Shown piece by piece: positions 49,967 through 64,000 of a DNA stretch of 64,000 nt; the stretch's first letter is position 1, and each line of letters begins with the position of its first letter. The notes under the pieces are model-generated. The model was not told the origin of the DNA, made no database searches, and saw only the letters and a list, made by a program, of their open reading frames with translations. This DNA comes from Deltaproteobacteria bacterium (lineage in GTDB: Bacteria > Myxococcota_A > UBA9160 > PR03). The DNA lies in the NCBI GenBank assembly GCA_035063765.1, contig JAPSFT010000007.1, positions 1-64,000 of the forward strand, in the 5' to 3' direction. A program made the translations under genes and the position numbers.

Positions 49967-51190
49967 CTACACCAGGCCATAGTGATGGAGCTTGTTGCGC
50001 AGCGTGCGCACGCTGATCCCGAGCGCGCGTGCTGCCCGGGTCCGGTTGCCCGCGCACAGCGCGAGCGCCTGCTCGACCGCGCGACGCTCGAGCGCGCGCA
50101 GGTCGAGCACCGGCGCCGCCGCCGCCCGGCGGGCGCGCGCGGCCGCGTGCGGCGCCAGGAGCGCTGCCACGTCGACAGCCTCGCCCGGGAACCACAGCAC
50201 CGCGCGCTGCATCAGGTTCTCGAGCTCGCGCAGGTTCCCGGGAAACGGATGCTGGCACAGCGCGGCGAGCGCGGCGGCGCCGAGCCGTGGCGGTGCGACA
50301 CCCTGTGCCGCGGCGAATCGCTCGCCGAGAGCCACGGCGAGCCGCGCCAGCTCGTTCGGCCGCTCGCGCAGCGGCGGTACGAACAGCCGCACGACGTCGA
50401 GGCGCAGTCGAAGCTCCGCGCGCAGCCTCGCGTCGGGGCCGAGAGGGCGCTCACAGATGACCACGACGCGCGGCGCAGCGCCGGCGCCGAGCCCGGCGAG
50501 CAGCCGTGCCTGGGCCACGGGCGACAGAGCGCCCGGCTCCACCAGCACGAGCGTTCCGTCCCGAGCCGCCGCCAGCGCTCCCTGGGTGCCACCGCCGTCG
50601 CCGAGCAGCACGGAGCCGGCCTGGTCGAGCTCGCGCGCATCGAGCTCCATGAGCGGACCGTCCCGGCGCGAGCTTGCCGCGTGCAGATAGCGCGCGAGGC
50701 GGCGCCTCCCGGTGGCGGCCTCGCCCACGATCGCGACGGTGGCGTCGGCACGCGCCGCAGCCTCGGCCTCGCGGACCAGCGCCTGCATCGCGGGATCGCC
50801 GGGGACCGGCGCGAAGTGCGGCGCGAGCGGACCGCGCGCGTGCTGGCCGGCCGCTGCCGCGAGCGCGCGCTCGAGGGCGCGCACGTCGAAGGGCTTGCCG
50901 AGGAAGGCGCGCGCGCCGCCTCGCAACGCCCGCACGGCGAGCGCGAGTCGATCCCGTTCGCCCATCCCGATCGCTGCGGGCGCGTCGGGCCGCCGGCACA
51001 GGCGCTCGAGCCCGGCCACGTCCGCGTCGTCGGCGAGGTCGGTCAGCACCAGGGTGAAGGCGCCGGGATCGCCCGCGAGCGCGGCGTCGAGGCTCGGAGC
51101 GGTGTCGACGCGCCATCCCGCCGCGCGTACGCATCCCGCGAGCAGCTCCGCCAGAGCCGGGTCCGGCTCGACGATCAGGACCCGCTGCAC
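49967..51190 (-). CDS. FlgR/NtrC-like regulator with degraded AAA+ ATPase motifs
   Basis: The protein has 407 residues in three parts. A receiver (1-115) retains D51 and K99. An AAA+ domain of sigma-54-activator ancestry follows (120-345), then a Fis-type HTH (CAGNRTRAARALGISVRTLR). The ATPase is damaged. Walker A is GEAATGRR (156-163), with Arg in place of the Lys of GESGTGKE. Walker B is GTLVLVEPG, with Val for the Asp. The sigma-54-contacting GAFTGA loop is replaced by a shortened GGGTQGA. Later motifs are normal (LRERPNELARLA, PFPGNLRELENLMQRA). DNA binding is plausible but ATP-driven sigma-54 activation is not. The GTG start overlaps the upstream kinase-like gene by 16 bases. Confidence 0.82.
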   Translation of the reverse strand: MQRVLIVEPDPALAELLAGCVRAAGWRVDTAPSLDAALAGDPGAFTLVLTDLADDADVAGLERLCRRPDAPAAIGMGERDRLALAVRALRGGARAFLGKPFDVRALERALAAAAGQHARGPLAPHFAPVPGDPAMQALVREAEAAARADATVAIVGEAATGRRRLARYLHAASSRRDGPLMELDARELDQAGSVLLGDGGGTQGALAAARDGTLVLVEPGALSPVAQARLLAGLGAGAAPRVVVICERPLGPDARLRAELRLRLDVVRLFVPPLRERPNELARLAVALGERFAAAQGVAPPRLGAAALAALCQHPFPGNLRELENLMQRAVLWFPGEAVDVAALLAPHAAARARRAAAAPVLDLRALERRAVEQALALCAGNRTRAARALGISVRTLRNKLHHYGLV

Positions 51191-55368: not shown

Positions 55369-55483
55369 AGCCCATCCGCGCGTGAGCGCTGGGCGCAGGT
55401 CGACGGGTTTCGCCCGCACGCAGGGTGCCTACCAGCGGGCCGTCGCGGCGCGCAGCCGCCGCCGCGCCGGCCGCCACCCGAAA

Positions 55484-55498
55484 GGCACGCCGCTTGCA
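55484..55498 (+). promoter_or_regulatory. Sigma-54-like promoter of the glycan operon
   Basis: The plus strand reads GGCACGCCGCTTGCA, preceded by A in place of the consensus T. GG and GC are separated by exactly 10 bases. The transcript would start near 55509, some 70 bases before the NeuB-type gene. It lies 115 bases from the divergent flagellar sigma-54 promoter, so the two operons may share enhancer sites. Confidence 0.72.
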
Positions 55499-55578
55499 GT
55501 TGCCCCCGGCGACCGCCCCTGGCCGGCTGCGAAGGGCCTGGCGATTTGCAGGATGGAGCGAACGCCTTGCAGAGCGAA

Positions 55579-56493
55579 ATGCGCGACGAGCAGAAGCTGC
55601 CGACCGCACCGGATCCGGGACGGGTGATCTTCGTCGCCGAGGTGGCGAGCAACCACGCCCGCGACCTCGACCGCGCACTGGCCTTCGTCGATACCGCGGC
55701 CGAGATCGGCTGCGACGTCGTGAAGTTCCAGCTCTTCCGCGTACGCGAGCTGTTCGCGGCCGAGGTGCTCGCGGGCAGCGCCACGCACCGCGCGCGCGAG
55801 GCGTGGGAGCTTCCCGAAGCGTTCGTGCCCATCCTCGCCGAACGCGCACGCGCGCGCGGGCTCGGCTTCTCTTGCACGCCGTTCCATCTCGACGCCGTCG
55901 ACTTGCTGGCGCCCTGCGTGGACTTCCTGAAGATCGCCTCCTACGAGCTGCTGTGGGAGGACCTGCTGCGCGCCTGCGCGCGGAGCGGGCTTCCCGTCGT
56001 GCTCTCGACCGGCATGGCAACGCTCGCGGAGGTGGAGCACGCGGCACGCGTGCTCGCCGCGAACGGCTGCCGAGACCTCGGCCTTCTCCACTGCGTGTCG
56101 CTCTACCCGACACCGCCGAGCGCCGCGAACCTGGGCGCGCTCGGCACCTTGCGCGCGCTGGCGCCGGCGCTGCCCGGCGTACGGCTACGGATCGGCTGGT
56201 CCGACCACAGCGCAGATCCCGCCGTCGTGTTGCGTGCCGTGCACCGGCACGGCGCCGAAATCGTCGAGCTGCACCTCGACCTCGACGGAGCGGGTGCCGA
56301 GTTCGAGCCGGGGCATTGCTGGCTGCCGGAGCGCGCCGCCGAGACGATCCGGCTGGTACGCACCGGTCTGGCTGCCGACGGCGACGGCACCAAGGAGCCG
56401 GACGCCGGTGAAGCCGACGAACGCGCCTGGCGCGCCGATCCGGCCGACGGCCTGCGCCCGCTCCGGACGACGCGAGCGGGGCTGGCGGCGTGA
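55579..56493 (+). CDS. NeuB-family (nonulosonic acid synthase-type) enzyme without SAF domain
   Basis: The 304-residue TIM barrel is of the NeuB family. It has IFVAEVASNHARDLDRALAF, EIGCDVVKFQLF, GLGFSCTPFHLDAVDLL, FLKIASYELLWEDLL, GLPVVLSTGMATLAEVEHAA, GLLHCVSLYPTPPSAANLGA and RIGWSDHSADP in order. Members condense PEP with a sugar to make sialic-, pseudaminic- or legionaminic-type acids. The C-terminal SAF (antifreeze-like) domain of standard NeuB is absent; the protein ends about 60 residues earlier. A TTG at 55567 is an alternative start. First gene of the nine-gene glycan operon. Confidence 0.82.
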   Translation: MRDEQKLPTAPDPGRVIFVAEVASNHARDLDRALAFVDTAAEIGCDVVKFQLFRVRELFAAEVLAGSATHRAREAWELPEAFVPILAERARARGLGFSCTPFHLDAVDLLAPCVDFLKIASYELLWEDLLRACARSGLPVVLSTGMATLAEVEHAARVLAANGCRDLGLLHCVSLYPTPPSAANLGALGTLRALAPALPGVRLRIGWSDHSADPAVVLRAVHRHGAEIVELHLDLDGAGAEFEPGHCWLPERAAETIRLVRTGLAADGDGTKEPDAGEADERAWRADPADGLRPLRTTRAGLAA

Positions 56494-57518
56494 GCGTGCC
56501 CGTCGTCCTGCGCTGCTTCTTCACGGCCGGCGCGCGCTACGGCCTCGGCCACGCCATGCGCACCCTCGAAGTGGCGCGCGAGGCCGTCGACCGCAACTGG
56601 TCCGTGGCGCTGGCCCTGCGCGGTGACGCAGCGGCCCACGCGCTGTGTGCCGAGCTGCTACCCGCCGCGGAGATCGAGCCCTGGACCGGGCCCGACGACG
56701 CTGCGCGTCCCGCACGCCACCTGTTCTTCGACACGCGTGAGCCGATCGCCGAGGAGCTGCGCCGCGGCGGCGCAGCCGGTGCCCACCGCGTCGTGCTCGA
56801 TCGCACCGATCACGTCGACGACGCCGAACTCAGCGTGTTGCCCAACCTGCACGGCTCCGGCCGTCGCCACCCGCGCCTGCTCCAGGGCGGGCGCTGGTGT
56901 GTGATCCCGAGGGAGTTCCGCGCGCTCGCCGCGCGTTGCGAGACACCGGCGCGCAGCGGCGTGCTCGTCACGATGGGCGGCGCCGACCCGCACGACCTGA
57001 CTGGCACGCTCTGCGAGCCGCTCGGCAAGGCGCTCGCCGCCGCGGGCGCCGATCTCGGCCCCGTCCACGTGCTGATCGGCCGCTGCTTCGGGCGGCGAGA
57101 GACGCTGCTTCGGCGCATCGACCAGCTCGGCTTCCGCGTACACACGGATCTCGACCGGAGCACGCTCGGACTGCTCATGCAGCGCAGCGTGTTCGCCGTG
57201 TGCGGCTTCGGCACGACGGTCTACGAGCTGGCCTGGTTCGGAACGCCGGCCCTGTACCTCGCGCACGGCCTCGAGGACGCAGCCGACGCCGAGGGGCTGG
57301 AAGCGATCGGCGTCGGCGGCCTCGGCGGCGCCGCGCCCACCATCGAGCCGGAAGCCCTGCACCGGCGGCTGCTCGAGACGGTGCTCGATCCGGAGTGGCG
57401 CCGGCCGCGTTCCGCGCGGGCGCGCGCGCTGCTCGGCGACGGGCGGGGCGCGGTTCGGCTCGTCGAGGCGATGGACGCCGCGCGGTGCGCGATCGCGAGC
57501 GAGGGGGGACAGAGGTGA
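56490..57518 (+). CDS. PseG-like nucleotide-sugar hydrolase or glycosyltransferase-fold protein
   Basis: The 342-residue GT-B-type protein starts RCFFTAGARYGLGHAMRTLE, like the G-x-G-H-x-x-R motif of PseG (FlmD/SpsG). Later it has GVLVTMGGADPHDLT, the strongly conserved nucleotide-binding block, and AVCGFGTTVYELAWFGTPAL near the C-terminus. PseG removes UDP from UDP-sugars in the pseudaminic acid route. The usual catalytic His is present in GLGHAMR. The GTG start overlaps the NeuB-type stop (GTGA). Here it could prepare the substrate of the NeuB-type enzyme. Confidence 0.8.
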   Translation: MSVPVVLRCFFTAGARYGLGHAMRTLEVAREAVDRNWSVALALRGDAAAHALCAELLPAAEIEPWTGPDDAARPARHLFFDTREPIAEELRRGGAAGAHRVVLDRTDHVDDAELSVLPNLHGSGRRHPRLLQGGRWCVIPREFRALAARCETPARSGVLVTMGGADPHDLTGTLCEPLGKALAAAGADLGPVHVLIGRCFGRRETLLRRIDQLGFRVHTDLDRSTLGLLMQRSVFAVCGFGTTVYELAWFGTPALYLAHGLEDAADAEGLEAIGVGGLGGAAPTIEPEALHRRLLETVLDPEWRRPRSARARALLGDGRGAVRLVEAMDAARCAIASEGGQR

Positions 57519-58246
57519 GGCTACGGGGCAAGGTGTGCCTGGTGACGGGGGGGAGCCGCGGGCTGGGTGCGGCGATCGTACGCGCCTTTGCGCGCGAGGG
57601 CGCGATTGCGGTGCCCACGTACTGCACGGGCCGCGCCGACGCGGAGAAGCTCGCGGCCGACGCCGGCTGCGCCGAGCCGCTGGCGCTCGACGTGCGCGAT
57701 CGCACGAGCGTGCGCGGAGCGATGGCGACGGTGGCCGCCCGCTACGGCCGCATCGACGTGCTCGTCAACAACGCGGGCGTCAACGTGACCGGCGACTTCG
57801 ACCAGATCAGCGACGCCCAGTGGGACGCGGTGCTCGACGTCGACTTGAAGGGTGTCTTCGTGTGCTGCCAGGAGGCGCTGCCGTACCTGCCGCAGGGCGG
57901 GCGCGTGATCAACGTCGGCTCGCTGTCGGGCGAGTACGGCGGCCCGCGCACCCCCTCCTACGCCGCCGCCAAGGCTGGCGTGATGGCGCTGACCCACTGC
58001 CTGGCCCGCTTCCTCGGGCCCCGCGGCATCACCGTGAACTGCCTCTCGCCGGGCGTGATCGACTCCGAGCTCACGGACCGCTCGATGCCGGCGTCGCTGC
58101 GCGACCGCATCCTGCCGACGATCCTGCTCGGCCGCCTCGGTCGACCCGACGAGGTACCCGGTGCCGCCGTCTTCCTGGCCTCCGACGAGGCCAGCTACGT
58201 CACCGCGCAGACGATCTCGGTGAACGGCGGCGCGTGGGTGCGATGA
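57515..58246 (+). CDS. Short-chain dehydrogenase/reductase (FabG-like)
   Basis: The 243-residue classical SDR has cofactor motif VTGGSRGLGAAIVRAF, the structural NNAG in DVLVNNAGVNVTGDF, and catalytic Ser/Tyr/Lys in VINVGSLSGEYGGPRTPSYA then AAKAG. The C-terminal block is PRGITVNCLSPGVIDSELTD, with SVNGGAWVR at the end. It is an NAD(P)-dependent oxidoreductase, probably acting on the sugar or sugar acid of this pathway. The GTG start overlaps the preceding stop. Confidence 0.9.
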   Translation: MRLRGKVCLVTGGSRGLGAAIVRAFAREGAIAVPTYCTGRADAEKLAADAGCAEPLALDVRDRTSVRGAMATVAARYGRIDVLVNNAGVNVTGDFDQISDAQWDAVLDVDLKGVFVCCQEALPYLPQGGRVINVGSLSGEYGGPRTPSYAAAKAGVMALTHCLARFLGPRGITVNCLSPGVIDSELTDRSMPASLRDRILPTILLGRLGRPDEVPGAAVFLASDEASYVTAQTISVNGGAWVR

Positions 58247-59547
58247 GCGCGCTGGCGGGACGCCACCTCCTGCTGGTCGGCGGGGGCCGTGAGGCGCTGC
58301 CCGGCTTCGCACGCCTGCGCGCGCTCGGCGCCCGGCTCGCGGTGAGCGACCGGGATCCCGCAGCCCCCGGCTTCGCCCTCGCCGACGAGCGCCTGCTCGC
58401 CAGCACCTACGACGCCGAGGCGACAGTGGCTGCCGCTCGCGCCCTGCACGCGCGCCTGCCGCTCGACGGCGTGCTCACGATCGCGGCCGACGTACCCGTC
58501 ACCGTGGCGAGCGTCGCCGACGCGCTGGGCCTGCCCGGACTCCCGCTCGCCGCTGCACGCCGCGCGGCGGACAAGCTTGCGATGAAGGAAGCGCTGCGCG
58601 CGGGCGGCGTGCCGGTACCCGAGTTCGCTCCGGTAGCCTCCGCTGCCGACCTGAGCTCCGCGCTGCGCCGTATCGGGCTGCCAGCGATCGTGAAGCCGGT
58701 CGACAGCCGTGGCGCGCGTGGCGTGGTCCGGCTGCGCCCGGGCGACGACGTCGCGGCGGCCTTCGCCGCCGCGCAAGCGGCCTCGCCGGCGGGTCGCGTG
58801 CTGGTGGAGCGCTTCGTCCCCGGACCACAGCTCTCGAGCGAGTCCTTCGTCGCGGGCGACACGATCGCGACGCCTGGCCTCGCCGATCGGAACTACGAGT
58901 GGCTCGAGGCGTGCGCGCCGCACGTCATCGAGAACGGTGGCCTCCAGCCGGCCCGGGCGGCCACCGTGCTGGCGCCACGCGTCGACGCGCTGGTGCGCGC
59001 CGCCGCGCATGCGCTCGGCCTGCCGGGCGGCATCGTGAAGGGTGACCTCGTGGTCGACGAGGACGGCACCCTGCGCGTGATCGAGGTGGCGGCGCGGCTC
59101 TCGGGGGGCGCCTTCTGCACGCTCACGATTCCGCTCTCGACCGGTGTAGACCTCGTCGCTGCCGCCGCGTGTCACGCCGTCGGCGTTCCCGTCGATCCGA
59201 CGACGCTGCGGCCGCGCCGCGCGACGCCGGTGGCGAATCGCTTCTTCCGGCCGCCGCCGGGACGATTGCGCGCGGTCACGGGCTTCGCCGCGGCGGCGCG
59301 CCTGCCCGGCGTCGCGTGGGCCGAGCTCACCGTCGAGCCCGGCGACCGGATCCGCCCGCTGACCGACCACACCTGCCGCGTCGGCTCCGTGATCGCGATC
59401 GGCGAAGGCGCCGACCAGGCGATCGCGCGCGCCGAGGCCGCCGTCGCGGCCGTGCGCTTCGATGTCGAACCCGAGGCCGCATCACCCGCGGCCGTTACGG
59501 AGGAAAACCACCGTGAAGCTCTTCCTCGATACGGCCTCGCTCGCTGA
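58243..59547 (+). CDS. ATP-grasp enzyme
   Basis: The 434-residue protein has a Rossmann-like N-terminal domain (LLLVGGGREALPGFARLRAL). The ATP-grasp core follows, with ARRAADKLAMKEALRAGGVP, GLPAIVKPVDSRGARGVVRL, VLVERFVPGPQLSSESFVAG, and GDLVVDEDGTLRVIEVAARL then SGG. This is the carbamoyl-phosphate-synthase-like group that ligates a carboxylate to an amine or other nucleophile using ATP. In this operon the nonulosonate carboxyl group would be a natural target, which is inference. The ATG overlaps the SDR stop; the end overlaps the next gene by 35 bases. Confidence 0.85.
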   Translation: MSALAGRHLLLVGGGREALPGFARLRALGARLAVSDRDPAAPGFALADERLLASTYDAEATVAAARALHARLPLDGVLTIAADVPVTVASVADALGLPGLPLAAARRAADKLAMKEALRAGGVPVPEFAPVASAADLSSALRRIGLPAIVKPVDSRGARGVVRLRPGDDVAAAFAAAQAASPAGRVLVERFVPGPQLSSESFVAGDTIATPGLADRNYEWLEACAPHVIENGGLQPARAATVLAPRVDALVRAAAHALGLPGGIVKGDLVVDEDGTLRVIEVAARLSGGAFCTLTIPLSTGVDLVAAAACHAVGVPVDPTTLRPRRATPVANRFFRPPPGRLRAVTGFAAAARLPGVAWAELTVEPGDRIRPLTDHTCRVGSVIAIGEGADQAIARAEAAVAAVRFDVEPEAASPAAVTEENHREALPRYGLAR

Positions 59548-60208
59548 GATCGAGCGGCTCGCGCCGCTCGGCCTGGTCGACGGGGTCACCAGCAACCCGG
59601 CGTTGCTCGCGCGCGAGCCGGGTGAACCCCTCGACGTGCTGCGCGCGATCGCGGCACGCGTCGCCGGCCCCGTGTCCGCGCAGGTGACGCACGGCGACGC
59701 CAAGGAGATGGTGGCACAGGGTCGCGGACTCGCCGCGCTGGCGCCGAACGTCGTGGTCAAACTTCCCGCCGACCGCGCCGGCCTGGAGGCCGCCCGCACG
59801 CTCGGTGCGGAGGGCATCCCGTGCAACGTGACGCTCTGCTTCGAGCCCGCGCAGATCGTGGCCTTCGCACGGGTGCCCGTCGCCTACGTGAGCCTGATCC
59901 TCGGCCGCACGGAGGACTTCGGGCTCGGTGACGAGCAGCGCGTGGCGGACGCCGCCAGCCTGCTCGCGCGCCTCGGCTCGCCGACCGAGCTGCTCGTCGC
60001 GAGCGTGCGCAACCCCGGCCACCTGCGACTCGCCGCGCTGGCCGGCGCGCACGTTGCCACGGTGCCGCCCGCCACCTGGGACCTCGTACTCGACCACCCG
60101 CTCACCGGCCGGGGCCTCGACGATTTCGCACGCAGCTGGCTCACCCTGCCTGCGCCGCGCCGCGCCGCCTACGACGCGCTGGGGACCCCGTGCCCGGGCG
60201 CGTGCTAG
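59513..60208 (+). CDS. Transaldolase / fructose-6-phosphate aldolase-like protein
   Basis: The 231-residue barrel opens with KLFLDTASLAEIERLAPLGL then VDGVTSNPALLAREP, the transaldolase TSNP motif. The Schiff-base lysine is expected at K83 in NVVVKLPADRAGLEAARTL, matching the K of the MipB/TalC group. NVTLCFEPAQIVAFA and YVSLILGRTEDFG follow. It probably forms or cleaves a C-C bond in a phosphorylated sugar precursor. The GTG start at 59513 has GGAGG ten bases upstream, inside the end of the ATP-grasp gene. Confidence 0.85.
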   Translation: MKLFLDTASLAEIERLAPLGLVDGVTSNPALLAREPGEPLDVLRAIAARVAGPVSAQVTHGDAKEMVAQGRGLAALAPNVVVKLPADRAGLEAARTLGAEGIPCNVTLCFEPAQIVAFARVPVAYVSLILGRTEDFGLGDEQRVADAASLLARLGSPTELLVASVRNPGHLRLAALAGAHVATVPPATWDLVLDHPLTGRGLDDFARSWLTLPAPRRAAYDALGTPCPGAC

Positions 60209-60951
60209 ACCGGCCTTCCGCCGCACCGGCGCCCATCGCAGACAGCGAGGCGGCGTTCTTCGCCGCCTGCGGCGCGCCTCTCGCGGAGCGACTCGCCAAT
60301 TTCGAGAAGTACGTGCCGCGGCCGAGCCTGCTGCGCTTCGTGGTCCGTTACGAGCTGTTCCGCCGCGCGCTCGACGTCAAGGGCTCGGTGATCGAGTGCG
60401 GGGTGCGGCAGGGGGGGGGACTGTTCGCGTGGGCCAAGCTCTCCTCGACCCTCGAGCCCTTCGCGATCCACCGGCGCGTGATCGGCTTCGACACCTTCGA
60501 GGGCTTCCCCGCACTCTCGGCCCACGACGAGCCCGCCGCCGGGACGCCGCTCGCCGAGCGCCGCCCCGGCGGTTTCGCGCCCACGCACGACGTCCACGGC
60601 GAGCTGTCGGCGCTGGCGGAGCTCCACGACCGCGGCCGCATCCTCGGCCACCATCCCAAGATCGAGCTGGTGCGCGGTGATGCTTGCGAGACGATCCCGC
60701 GCTTCGTCGCCGAGAACCGGCACCTGCTGGTGGCGTTGCTGTTCCTCGACTTCGACCTCTACGAGCCGACCCGGGCCGCGCTCGAGCACCTGCTTCCGCG
60801 CATGCCGAAGGGCGCCGTGATCGCCTTCGACGAGGTCAACAGCGCGTACTGGCCGGGCGAGACCGAGGCGCTGCTCGAGCGGTTCGACCTGCGCCGGCTA
60901 CGGCTGCGCAAGTTCCCGTTCGACCCGAACGTCGCGTGGGCGGTGCTGTGA
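60190..60951 (+). CDS. TylF/MycF-type O-methyltransferase
   Basis: The 253-residue SAM-dependent methyltransferase of the macrocin/mycinamicin O-methyltransferase group has SVIECGVRQGGGLFAWAKLS as the SAM loop and IGFDTFEGFPALSAHDEP. The metal-binding block is LLFLDFDLYEPTRAALEHLL, followed by GAVIAFDEVNSAYWPGETEA. MycF-type enzymes methylate sugar hydroxyls using Mg2+. In this operon it would methylate the glycan. It overlaps the transaldolase gene by 19 bases and starts at GTG. Confidence 0.85.
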   Translation: MPGRVLDRPSAAPAPIADSEAAFFAACGAPLAERLANFEKYVPRPSLLRFVVRYELFRRALDVKGSVIECGVRQGGGLFAWAKLSSTLEPFAIHRRVIGFDTFEGFPALSAHDEPAAGTPLAERRPGGFAPTHDVHGELSALAELHDRGRILGHHPKIELVRGDACETIPRFVAENRHLLVALLFLDFDLYEPTRAALEHLLPRMPKGAVIAFDEVNSAYWPGETEALLERFDLRRLRLRKFPFDPNVAWAVL

Positions 60952-61787
60952 CGGCCGTGCCCTCCCGGTCGCGGGCGCCGCGGGTACTCCAATGCGGATT
61001 CCCGAAGTCGGGCAACTATGGCGTCTACCGTCTGCTGGCCGCGCTGCTCGATCGTCACGGCCTGCGCCAATCCTTCAAGCGGCGCACCGGGTTGGCCCAC
61101 GTCGCCGCGACGCTGGGTGCCGAGCAGCTGCTCTTCCCGGAGGCCGCCGAGGTCGACGCCGTCTCGTTTGCGAGCGGGGCTGCGCTCCTCGAGTTCCCGC
61201 ACCCGGACTGCCGCTGGCTGCCCGTCGACGCCGGACTCCTGCTCGCGGGCTCGACCTTGCTCTGGACGCACGACCCGTGCGAGGTAGCGTCCCGTCCCGA
61301 GCTCGACGCGGTCACGCACCGCGTCTACGTCGCCCGCGACGGGCGCGACGTCCTCGACTCGCTCGCCCATCACGTGGTGCGTCCGGAGATCCGGCGCCTG
61401 CACCCCGAGTACCGGCACGCGTCGCCGGCCGCGGTCTACGCCGACCTGCCGCTCTTCACGCGCTACGCCCGGCGCTGGTCCGAGCACGTGGGTTCGTACC
61501 TGAAGCACCGCGAGCGCTTCCTGCTCGTGCGCCTCGAGGACCTGGCACGTGACCCGGCCGGCACCGTGGAGCGGGTCGCAGCGGCGCTCGGGCTTGCCGT
61601 CGACGCACCCGCGCTCGGAGCGCGGCTCACGTTCGCGGCGCTCGCGCCCGATGCGCCGGGCCACCTTCGCCGCGGTGCGCCGGGGGGCTGGCGCGAAGCC
61701 TTCGGCCCCGCCCAACGGCTCGCCTTCGAAGAGGCGGCGGGCGAGGCGCTGGCCGCGCTCGGCTACACGCCGGGAGACGCGTCGTGA
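60948..61787 (+). CDS. Sulfotransferase (first copy)
   Basis: The protein has 279 residues. The PAPS 5-prime-phosphosulfate loop is RVLQCGFPKSGNYGVYRLLA (K20). The 3-prime-phosphate motif is in HRVYVARDGRDVLDSLAHHV. The end, AFGPAQRLAFEEAAGEALAA then LGY, is the usual sulfotransferase terminus. It transfers sulfate from PAPS to a hydroxyl, probably of the sugar made by this operon. It overlaps the methyltransferase gene as GTGA. A paralogue follows two genes later. Confidence 0.84.
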   Translation: MTAVPSRSRAPRVLQCGFPKSGNYGVYRLLAALLDRHGLRQSFKRRTGLAHVAATLGAEQLLFPEAAEVDAVSFASGAALLEFPHPDCRWLPVDAGLLLAGSTLLWTHDPCEVASRPELDAVTHRVYVARDGRDVLDSLAHHVVRPEIRRLHPEYRHASPAAVYADLPLFTRYARRWSEHVGSYLKHRERFLLVRLEDLARDPAGTVERVAAALGLAVDAPALGARLTFAALAPDAPGHLRRGAPGGWREAFGPAQRLAFEEAAGEALAALGYTPGDAS

Positions 61788-63007
61788 GCACGGCGCGCAA
61801 CGTTCCGCTGGCGCGCTTCCTCGTACAGGCGAGCTCGCGCTCCTGGAAGGGCGCACCCGACCCCTGCCTGCAGCCGCTGGAAGGGCGCCCTGCCGTCGTG
61901 CATACCCTCGAGCGCGTCGCTGCACGCTGGCCGGCGCTCGGAGTGACCCTGGTGGCACCGGCCTTCGATCGCGAGGGGCCCTTCCCCGGACTCGCGCCGC
62001 GCATCGCACCGGCCCGCTTCGCGCGCCTGTTCGCCCACGACGGCGATCCGCTCGCGAGGCTCGTCGATGCAACAGCCGATCTCCCCGCCGGCGCACTCGT
62101 CGCGCGCTGCGACGGCCAGCACCCCTTCGTCGACCTCGACGTCACCGAGGCGCTGGCGGCCTGCGCGACGGCCGAGGGACTCGACTGCGCGAAGCTGCCC
62201 GACGACTTCCCGCCGGCTTTCGCCTCCGAGGTGTATCGAGTGGGCGCGCTGCGCCGGCTGGCCGCGGCGCTCCACCCGGCCCGCGACGCCGCCCTGCGCG
62301 CGTACCCGCGCCATGCGGCCTGCCGGGCGGAGAGCGGCCTGCGCTGGCGGCACTTCCCCCCGCCCCGCTACGCGCCGGCCCGCCTGCACGCCTGGCGTCG
62401 TGCCGCGCGTGCCCTCTACGACACGCCGCGCGCCGAGGGGGACCCCGCGCACCGCCAGGCCGCCGGCGACCAGTCGCGCTTCCACTACGAGCTTGCCGCC
62501 GCGCACCTCGCGTCCGACTTCCGCGTCCTCGAGGCCGCCTGCGGAGACGGCGGCGGCACACGCTTCCTGGCCGAGCGGGTGGCCGAGGTCGTCGCCGTCG
62601 ACCTCGCGCGCGGCCAGCTCCCGCGACTTGCCGGGCTGCGCGCACGCCGCTGGCCGGTGCGCGCCGTCGTCGCCGACGTGTCCCGATTGCCCTTCCCCAC
62701 CGGTCGCTTCGACGCCGTTACGTCGTTCGAGACGCTCGAGCACACGGTGGATCCCGAAGCCTGCCTGGCCTCGTTCGCCCGCGTGCTGCGGCCCGGCGGG
62801 GTCCTGGTGCTCTCGACGCCGCAGAGCTCGCTCGGCGCCGTGCCGCTCAACCCGCATCACCACCGGGAGTTCTCGCTCGACGAGTTGCGCGCACTGGTGA
62901 CCGCGCGCTTCCGGATCCACGAACTGATCGGGATCAAGGCTGGACGCATCGTCGTCCCGGGGGATCCGGTGGGCAACAACACGGTGATGGTATGCGAGCG
63001 GCGTTGA
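61784..63007 (+). CDS. Cytidylyltransferase-like (SpsF/NeuA type) fused to a SAM methyltransferase
   Basis: The 407-residue protein has two domains. Residues 8-190 follow the SpsF/KdsB cytidylyltransferase pattern. The segment PLEGRPAVVHTLERVAARWP and VARCDGQHPFVDLDVTEALA (R-C-D-G-D-x-P in relatives) are present. The glycine/lysine-rich NTP loop is altered (SSRSWKGAPDPCLQ). Residues 225-400 form a class-I methyltransferase: FRVLEAACGDGGGTRFLAER, RFDAVTSFETLEHTVDPEAC, and LRPGGVLVLSTPQ. Nucleotide activation of the sugar plus methylation is the simplest reading; the loop change leaves activity of the first domain uncertain. GTG start overlapping the sulfotransferase stop. Confidence 0.78.
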   Translation: MSTARNVPLARFLVQASSRSWKGAPDPCLQPLEGRPAVVHTLERVAARWPALGVTLVAPAFDREGPFPGLAPRIAPARFARLFAHDGDPLARLVDATADLPAGALVARCDGQHPFVDLDVTEALAACATAEGLDCAKLPDDFPPAFASEVYRVGALRRLAAALHPARDAALRAYPRHAACRAESGLRWRHFPPPRYAPARLHAWRRAARALYDTPRAEGDPAHRQAAGDQSRFHYELAAAHLASDFRVLEAACGDGGGTRFLAERVAEVVAVDLARGQLPRLAGLRARRWPVRAVVADVSRLPFPTGRFDAVTSFETLEHTVDPEACLASFARVLRPGGVLVLSTPQSSLGAVPLNPHHHREFSLDELRALVTARFRIHELIGIKAGRIVVPGDPVGNNTVMVCERR

Positions 63008-63834
63008 CTCCTCCGGACGGAGCCCCGCTGCGCGTCCTCCAGTGCGGCTACTCGAAGTCCGGCAACTGGCTGCTGCACGGGATCGTGGCGGCGATCCTCG
63101 GCCGGCACGGACGCTTCCGCTCCTTCGTCGAGGCGAGCGGCGTGGGAGCGGTGATCGATGGACTCTGCGGCGCCACGCGGCGCATGCCCGACGCCCACCG
63201 CGTGGACAACTTCAAGCTCGTCGACGGGCGCTGGCACGTGCAGTTCCCGGACCATCGCTGCCGCTTCCTGCCGCTCGACATCGAGCTGGCACTGGCACAC
63301 TCGACGCTGGTCTGGAGCCACGATCGACCGGACGAGCTGGCGCCCTGGAGCCCACGCTTCTCGCACCGTCTCTACGTGCTGCGCGACGGCCGCGACGTCG
63401 TGAACTCGATGCTCCACTACCTGGTGACGCCCGCGATCCTGGCGCTCTACCCGGACCACCGCTTCGAGACGATCGAGCAGATCTACGGGGACCTCGACTT
63501 CTTCGCCGGCAAGGTGACGGCCTGGCGCGACCACGTGCGCGCTCTGGCCGGCCGCGCCGGTGGCTGGCGGCTGGTGCGCTACGAGGCGCTGGTCGAGGAC
63601 CGAGAGGCGACGGTCGCCGCCCTCGCCGCACACCTCGGTCTGCCGGTCGACGCGTCCGCGATCGCACGCGACGCGGACTTCGCACGCATGCGCGAACAGG
63701 CGCCACGCCACCTGCGCGCGGGCCGGCGCGGCGACTGGCGACGCTGGTTCGGCACCCGGCACCGCGCGGTCTTCAAGGACCTGGCCGGGTGCGAGCTCGT
63801 CGAGCTCGGCTACGCCAGCTCCCTCGACTGGTGA
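62992..63834 (+). CDS. Sulfotransferase (second copy)
   Basis: The 280-residue protein has RVLQCGYSKSGNWLLHGIVA as the PAPS loop (K22), HRLYVLRDGRDVVNSMLHYL as the 3-prime-phosphate motif, and the same terminal helix as the first copy (LAGCELVELGY). The two copies share order, length and motifs (RVLQCG-x-x-KSGN, P-x-I-x-x-L-x-P-x-x-R, R-x-x-LVRxExL), so they arose by duplication. They probably sulfate different positions. The ATG at 62992 lies inside the end of the fusion gene (16-base overlap). This is the last plus-strand gene of the operon. Confidence 0.84.
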   Translation: MRAALTPPDGAPLRVLQCGYSKSGNWLLHGIVAAILGRHGRFRSFVEASGVGAVIDGLCGATRRMPDAHRVDNFKLVDGRWHVQFPDHRCRFLPLDIELALAHSTLVWSHDRPDELAPWSPRFSHRLYVLRDGRDVVNSMLHYLVTPAILALYPDHRFETIEQIYGDLDFFAGKVTAWRDHVRALAGRAGGWRLVRYEALVEDREATVAALAAHLGLPVDASAIARDADFARMREQAPRHLRAGRRGDWRRWFGTRHRAVFKDLAGCELVELGYASSLDW

Positions 63835-64000
63835 GGCGATGCCGCGTTCTGCCAGCGCCAGGGATCCAGGACTGTCTCGGGGAGCGGCGGCACCAGCACC
63901 GCAAGCTCCTGCTGCAGGCGCGCCGCACGCGCGATCGCCGCGTCTGCCCGCAGGTGCGCGCCGAGCTGGGCCGCGCACTCGACGCCGATCACGAGCGCCA
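63810..64000 (-). CDS. Partial gene entering from the right, C-terminus only
   Basis: A minus-strand frame is open to the window edge and ends at 63810, overlapping the second sulfotransferase gene tail to tail by 25 bases. The visible 62 residues include IGVECAAQLGAHLRADAAIA then RAARLQQELAVLVPPLPETV. No family is recognised. A GTG at 63992 could in principle be a start, but the frame continues through it, so it is more likely an internal codon. Confidence 0.45.
   Translation of the reverse strand, partial: ALVIGVECAAQLGAHLRADAAIARAARLQQELAVLVPPLPETVLDPWRWQNAASPHQSRELA

Follow-up and report, generated by a model that had tools for sequence, protein, structure and literature searches.

The sugars attached to flagellin can influence its antigenicity and the assembly of the filament. 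In Shewanella oneidensis, normal flagellin modification needs sfmABCDE (SO_3261-3265), which encode a NeuB protein, a thiamine pyrophosphate (TPP) enzyme, a short-chain dehydrogenase/reductase (SDR), a methyltransferase and an ATP-grasp enzyme (PMC3765264). The glycan consists of a 274 Da mono-N-acetyl form of pseudaminic acid (Pse) with a protonatable amine, and a unit without nitrogen that, depending on its methylation, has a mass of 236, 250 or 264 Da (PMC3765264). As of 2013 neither this unit nor what SfmB, SfmC and SfmE do had been explained (PMC3765264), and the literature that could be searched yielded no later account. From the published formulas we calculated C11H20O7 for the 264 Da residue, which corresponds to an acid of formula C9H18O8 bearing two methyl groups and would be compatible with an acyclic polyhydroxy acid. 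We analysed a related nine-gene operon in a 64,000-nucleotide stretch of DNA (the window) at the start of a 272 kb contig (JAPSFT010000007.1) in the 96% complete genome of a Deltaproteobacteria bacterium (GCA_035063765.1). With slightly better than even confidence, the joint product of the predicted genes of this operon and of its convergent neighbour would be a nonulosonic acid of Pse type, destined for flagellin, sulfated and carrying an ATP-grasp-linked, methylated polyhydroxy acid.

Acyl groups and amide-linked caps are known from other flagellins. In Campylobacter jejuni Pse bears di-O-methylglyceric acid (PMC3068675), and the flagellin glycan of Treponema denticola has a mass of 450.2 Da (PMC9481697). 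The 274 Da unit plus a C7H12O5 residue gives a calculated 450.18, which matches the T. denticola value; this likeness is one of mass, and that glycan, unlike the one predicted here, has no known sulfate. A 2017 study of T. denticola reportedly placed a methoxy-trihydroxy-hexanoyl group on its flagellin glycan. In C. difficile type B (CDR20291_0244-0247) the peptidylamido cap disappears when an ATP-grasp gene is mutated (PMC5207246), and an ATP-grasp is genetically required for an amide- and sulfur-containing flagellin cap, as in the scheme proposed below. Unlike the window, that system has a sulfonated cap, no glycosulfotransferase among the genes studied and a GlcNAc-rhamnose core rather than a nonulosonate.

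A nine-gene operon inside a flagellar gene cluster

The operon comprises nine plus-strand open reading frames (ORFs; 55567-63834, Table 1) whose eight consecutive overlaps are 4, 4, 4, 35, 19, 4, 4 and 4 nt. The start codon is uncertain for NeuB (TTG 55567 or ATG 55579) and for the transaldolase (59462 or 59513). The same nine genes in unchanged order, at 53-80% identity, were found in another genus of the same family ('Proteobacteria bacterium PRO3', loci L014/L031), and since order and content recur, the set is beyond chance. The nine-gene operon with overlaps at every junction, described in a first-pass annotation of the window, is therefore confirmed. The sigma-54-driven expression suggested there agrees with a predicted sigma-54-type (-24/-12) promoter upstream, AGGCACGCCGCTTGCA (55483-55498, plus strand; AGGCACG-CCGC-TTGCA), which has one mismatch to TGGCACGN4TTGCA and is kept in L014 as AGGCATGGCGCTTGCA. 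The window holds two sites with at most one mismatch to this consensus, versus 0.13 expected, the second being upstream of flgB.

The first-pass annotation placed the operon next to flagellar genes, and the whole set indeed lies inside a flagellar gene cluster. On one side are genes for PilZ, a sigma-54 activator, FlgB, FlgC, FliF and FliI. On the other, a convergent minus-strand operon (contig 63810-73358) extends beyond the window edge; past its PseB gene follow FliS/FliT-sized genes (FliS by size and position), FliD, flagellin (75803-76630), FliW, FlgL, FlgK and FlhA. PseB and PseC, first taken to be missing, are absent from the operon itself, but PseB and a probable PseC are encoded about 8 kb downstream, on the opposite strand and outside the window. 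A new backbone made without PseB and PseC was dropped as an explanation once these genes appeared in the contig past the window edge. A legionaminic route was likewise rejected: the neighbouring dehydratase (TIGR04180, 54 versus 475 bits) and aminotransferase (TIGR04181, 199 versus 420) resemble LegB and LegC much less closely than they do PseB and PseC, a comparison confined to this pair, with the rest of the genome not searched. PseH gave no match in the genome to TIGR03585, the one model used, at E 1e-3, so that its reported lack extends to the whole genome by this model, while a lack of the other classical Pse genes is not supported. A GNAT-like protein, recognised by eye, is encoded between flagellin and FliW (contig 77076-78173, plus strand); it matches no NCBIfam model and not the PseH model.

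Domain labels were taken from Pfam and NCBIfam searches with the NCBIfam equivalog cut-offs applied. The initial labels hold for NeuB, the SDR, the ATP-grasp enzyme, the transaldolase (TAL_FSA), the TylF-type enzyme, the C-terminal methyltransferase of gene 8 and the first sulfotransferase (ST1); they are weaker for the PseG-like protein (below cut-off), the second sulfotransferase (ST2, just above cut-off) and the cytidylyltransferase-like domain (a remote profile match). NeuB, present in single copy in the genome, has no C-terminal SAF domain by Pfam and scores 131.8 bits against the PseI model TIGR03586 (cut-off 340.25). The nearest PDB relative is the L-amino acid ligase BL00235 for the ATP-grasp enzyme (E 7e-21) and CalS11, a TDP-rhamnose 3'-O-methyltransferase, for the TylF-type gene (E 6e-38). 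The transaldolase also matches fsa_talC_mipB, below the equivalog cut-off. For the N-terminus of gene 8, hhalign gave a probability of 70% (E 4e-5) against a CTP-transferase profile, a likeness at profile level only; the AlphaFold2 model of gene 8 (pLDDT 90) matched only methyltransferases in Foldseek, that domain dominating, and gene 8 relatives of equal length occur in L037, L047, L049, L051 and L102. The two sulfotransferases are 41% identical, and both have intact motifs for 3'-phosphoadenosine 5'-phosphosulfate (PAPS): the 5' loop KSGN, the histidine motif W(T/S)HD and the 3' motif RDGRDV(L/V)(D/N)S. Since the genome encodes an adenosine 5'-phosphosulfate kinase, PAPS can be made. A sulfotransferase relative is also found in L050 and L051.

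A recurring module with alternative carboligases

A profile of the ATP-grasp enzyme detected 206 encoding places in public genomes, and the best 80 named loci, from many phyla, were retained and annotated by tblastn; three Shewanella species (L081, L096, L107) are among the profile loci. The set that recurs consists of a carboligase, usually an SDR, the ATP-grasp enzyme and a GH57-fold protein; a SAF-less NeuB often accompanies them. Sequence of 3 kb or more upstream of the ATP-grasp gene was available for 64 loci, and in these the carboligase was a split transketolase (30), an IlvB-type TPP enzyme (18) or a transaldolase (9); none was detected in 7 and two kinds occurred together in 0 (Fisher 4e-7 for transaldolase versus the others, a statistic that ignores the phylogeny of these related loci). 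The transaldolase, noted at first as an enzyme foreign to the classical route, is not confined to this locus: it occurs at about 10 other loci, and its slot is filled elsewhere by a TPP enzyme or a transketolase. We found nothing in the literature on transaldolase in flagellin nonulosonate clusters, and no relevant report on transketolase in them. The GH57-fold gene lies within 3 kb of the ATP-grasp gene in 67 of the 80 loci, across phyla, and several acidic residues are invariant in its alignment; Foldseek matched the protein to GH57 and GH38 enzymes and gave no functional clue. Around 55% of the loci had NeuB and cytidylyltransferase genes no more than 10 kb away, and around 40% a PseG-like gene. 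The NeuBs near the module are mostly about 285-305 aa, short like that of the operon, and Shewanella SfmA has 290 aa. PseH scored above cut-off in 0 of 20 module-bearing genomes, 12 of which gave weaker GNAT matches.

Like Shewanella sfm, the locus combines a NeuB of SAF-less length, an SDR, an S-adenosylmethionine-dependent methyltransferase and an ATP-grasp enzyme with an adjoining Maf, and in both PseB and PseC are encoded outside the cluster; no PseH is reported for Shewanella either. The sfm-type set found here is thus a SAF-less NeuB, a carboligase, an SDR, a methyltransferase and an ATP-grasp enzyme near Maf. The two differ in carboligase (an IlvB-type TPP enzyme in Shewanella, a transaldolase in the window) and in promoter (FliA versus a sigma-54-type site), and no sulfotransferases, TylF-type gene or PseG ortholog are reported for sfm, whereas the window has two sulfotransferases, a TylF-type gene and a PseG-like gene. 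With the Campylobacter/Helicobacter pathway (PseBCHGIF with Maf/PseD-E) the locus has in common PseB, a probable PseC, the PseG-like protein, the NeuB/PseI family, a cytidylyltransferase and Maf; unlike that pathway it shows no PseH match, its NeuB is SAF-less, and it has an additional carboligase, ATP-grasp enzyme, methyltransferases and sulfotransferases. The operon is a transaldolase-type, probably sulfated variant of an sfm-like module, which by this survey reaches far beyond the two Shewanella species known for it in 2013. The module could explain the Shewanella flagellar sugar add-on. The pattern of one of three carboligases, a reductase, an amide ligase and usually no PseH offers concrete chemistry, and one scheme would tie together Shewanella, possibly T. 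denticola and dozens of uncultured lineages. More tentatively, at somewhat less than even confidence, we propose that many bacteria make N-acylated nonulosonates by a route independent of PseH, in which interchangeable carboligases, a ketoreductase and an ATP-grasp enzyme produce a methylated polyhydroxy acid and attach it as an amide to the flagellin sugar; here, with two sulfotransferases, this route would lead to a sulfated flagellin glycan. A sulfated bacterial flagellin glycan would be new to our knowledge; a limited literature search showed no bacterial case.

A proposed route and its alternatives

In the proposed route, PseB and PseC would produce UDP-4-amino-4,6-dideoxy-L-AltNAc, the 4-amine of which would stay unacetylated without PseH. 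The transaldolase would form a bond between a short ketol unit and an aldehyde, the ketone would be reduced by SDR1, and a methyltransferase would carry out O-methylation. The ATP-grasp enzyme would then link the polyhydroxy acid so formed to the free sugar amine as an amide, replacing the acetyl group added by PseH. After removal of UDP by the PseG-like hydrolase, the SAF-less NeuB would condense the bulky sugar with phosphoenolpyruvate and the cytidylyltransferase would activate the nonulosonate. The two PAPS sulfotransferases would sulfate hydroxyls of the acid or the sugar, and Maf would transfer the product to serine or threonine of flagellin before export. The scheme starts from gene content, synteny, flagellar context, the identity of PseB, the lack of a PseH match, the exclusivity of the carboligase slot and the PAPS motifs, all read from the DNA; we infer the acid-specific reactions, where the acid is attached, in what order the steps take place and what is sulfated. 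An O-methylated polyhydroxy acid made by the module and joined by the ATP-grasp enzyme to the PseH-site amine is suggested by the Shewanella formulas, the C. jejuni acid and the T. denticola mass. As to the first-pass annotation, a nonulosonate-type product is supported, as are the sulfotransferases, whose PAPS motifs are intact, and the methyltransferases.

Flagellar use of the sugar, also proposed from the start, is supported by the gene arrangement because a single NeuB and a single Maf lie in one flagellar cluster, together with FliD and flagellin, and because flagellin was matched in 38 of 42 genomes tested with a related ATP-grasp enzyme. This evidence, and a sigma-54-type promoter whose only counterpart in the window is upstream of flgB, makes it very unlikely that the sugar is destined for capsule, lipopolysaccharide or exopolysaccharide and that the flagellar neighbourhood is incidental; capsule or lipopolysaccharide use is weakened by the single NeuB and Maf inside the cluster. 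Such a destination would agree with Aeromonas caviae, in which one Pse serves both flagellin and O-antigen (PMC3426422), and with the 4 of 42 module-bearing genomes that had no flagellin match (L038, L046, L059, L064), so the module is not strictly flagellar. Two of these, L059 and L064, have a transaldolase-type module with NeuB, which suggests a non-flagellar use.

The ATP-grasp enzyme was first thought to modify the carboxylate of the sugar. ATP-grasp enzymes activate carboxylates, and a nonulosonic acid has one that could form an amide with an amine; the transaldolase would then supply a different backbone precursor, and the SAF-less NeuB could mean an unusual substrate. We consider this quite improbable. 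PseB and PseC imply a Pse-like backbone, and lack of PseH would leave its amine free. In Shewanella the outer unit is nitrogen-free and the inner unit holds the protonatable amine (PMC3765264), which places the amine on the sugar and brings the acid from outside. An amide bond joining the sugar amine to an acid of outside origin would be consistent with the kinship of the enzyme to an L-amino acid ligase and with the genetics of C. difficile type B and of Shewanella sfm. It is also unlikely, if less so, that the transaldolase is a housekeeping enzyme of the pentose phosphate pathway and that the glycan is a Pse of the usual kind, methylated and sulfated, to which the ATP-grasp enzyme attaches a simple acyl group. 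The gene is the sole TAL_FSA match in the genome, and the PDB entries closest to it are short transaldolases of the ordinary type. Yet its reading frame overlaps those of its operon neighbours, most genomes of the source's order lack a close transaldolase, and elsewhere the gene stands in the same slot, mutually exclusive with the TPP enzyme and the transketolase.

Several points weigh against the amide-linked, sulfated Pse-type glycan proposed here. Loss of sfmA-D in Shewanella abolishes the whole mass shift and not the outer unit alone (PMC3765264), and acid synthesis may not be separable from that of the sugar; a two-part model does not predict this unless Maf demands a finished sugar, as the Shewanella authors suggest (PMC3765264). 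The sole transaldolase of the genome may have the housekeeping role considered above, no obvious carboxylate-supplying enzyme is found among the genes, and the scheme offers no step for the GH57-fold protein, which is near-constant in the module. Among the relatives of the TylF-type and gene 8 methyltransferases are sugar O-methyltransferases, and the target of these two enzymes may be the sugar and not the acid. The absence of PseH relies on a single model, and the functions of all genes are predicted.

Gene inventory and variant loci

Table 1. Predicted genes of the operon, the convergent operon and a candidate regulator (contig positions)
Feature	Position	Strand	Evidence and remarks
NeuB/PseI-type nonulosonate synthase	55567-56493	+	PF03102 E 8.5e-49, 166 bits; no SAF match
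PseG-like UDP-sugar hydrolase	56490-57518	+	TIGR03590 52.6 bits, E 5e-14, cut-off 153.55; GHAMR motif
SDR1, FabG-like ketoreductase	57515-58246	+	PF13561 E 2.6e-62; 79-80% identity to L014
ATP-grasp carboxylate-amine ligase with LAL_C2	58243-59547	+	PF18603 E 1.9e-23
Transaldolase/fructose-6-phosphate-aldolase family enzyme	59513-60208	+	PF00923 E 1.4e-40; catalytic-lysine motif VVKLP
TylF-type O-methyltransferase	60190-60951	+	PF05711 E 9.6e-11
Sulfotransferase ST1	60948-61787	+	PF00685 E 4e-11; KSGN PAPS loop, catalytic-type His (WTHD), RDGRDVLDS
Gene 8, remote cytidylyltransferase-like N-terminus fused to class I methyltransferase	61784-63007	+	Methyltransf_11 E 3.7e-22
Sulfotransferase ST2	63004-63834	+	PF00685 E 4e-5, 23.5 bits (cut-off 22); KSGN, WSHD, RDGRDVVNS
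Aldo/keto reductase, last gene of convergent operon	63810-64748	-	3' end (63810-64000) inside window
SDR2	64745-65569	-	convergent operon
Cytidylyltransferase	65566-66306	-	PF02348 E 1e-17, QARxGSxRLPxK motif; PseF-type candidate
Receiver-like protein	66303-66899	-	convergent operon
Maf flagellin glycosyltransferase	66896-68887	-	PF01973 E 2.8e-31 and PF20157; single copy in genome
GH57-fold protein	68865-71180	-	convergent operon
PseC	71177-72397	-	TIGR03588 best match, 367 bits, cut-off 423.5
PseB, inverting UDP-GlcNAc 4,6-dehydratase	72387-73358	-	TIGR03589 460.3 bits, cut-off 407.75
Sigma-54 activator with receiver domain, candidate regulator	49967-51190	-	Sigma54_activat E 1.7e-11, HTH_8, Response_reg

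Variants of the module were observed at several loci. At least one transaldolase locus, L094, has a zinc dehydrogenase in the SDR position. A cytidylyltransferase and an IlvB-type TPP enzyme are fused in one reading frame in L018 (6468-8834) and L019 (8329-10728), and in a nonulosonate cluster of L021 (9714-12389) the ATP-grasp enzyme is fused to a class III aminotransferase. B12-binding radical SAM proteins are encoded beside the transaldolase or the ATP-grasp enzyme in L051 (7751-9244) and L094 (11221-12747), where C-methylation of the acid is possible. In a genome of the same genus as the source (G001; L022, L111) the order PseB-PseC-GH57-Maf is kept at 46-69% identity. The convergent cassette there differs, with another ATP-grasp enzyme, methyltransferase and nucleotidyltransferase and a longer NeuB, which suggests cassette exchange at one flagellar locus.

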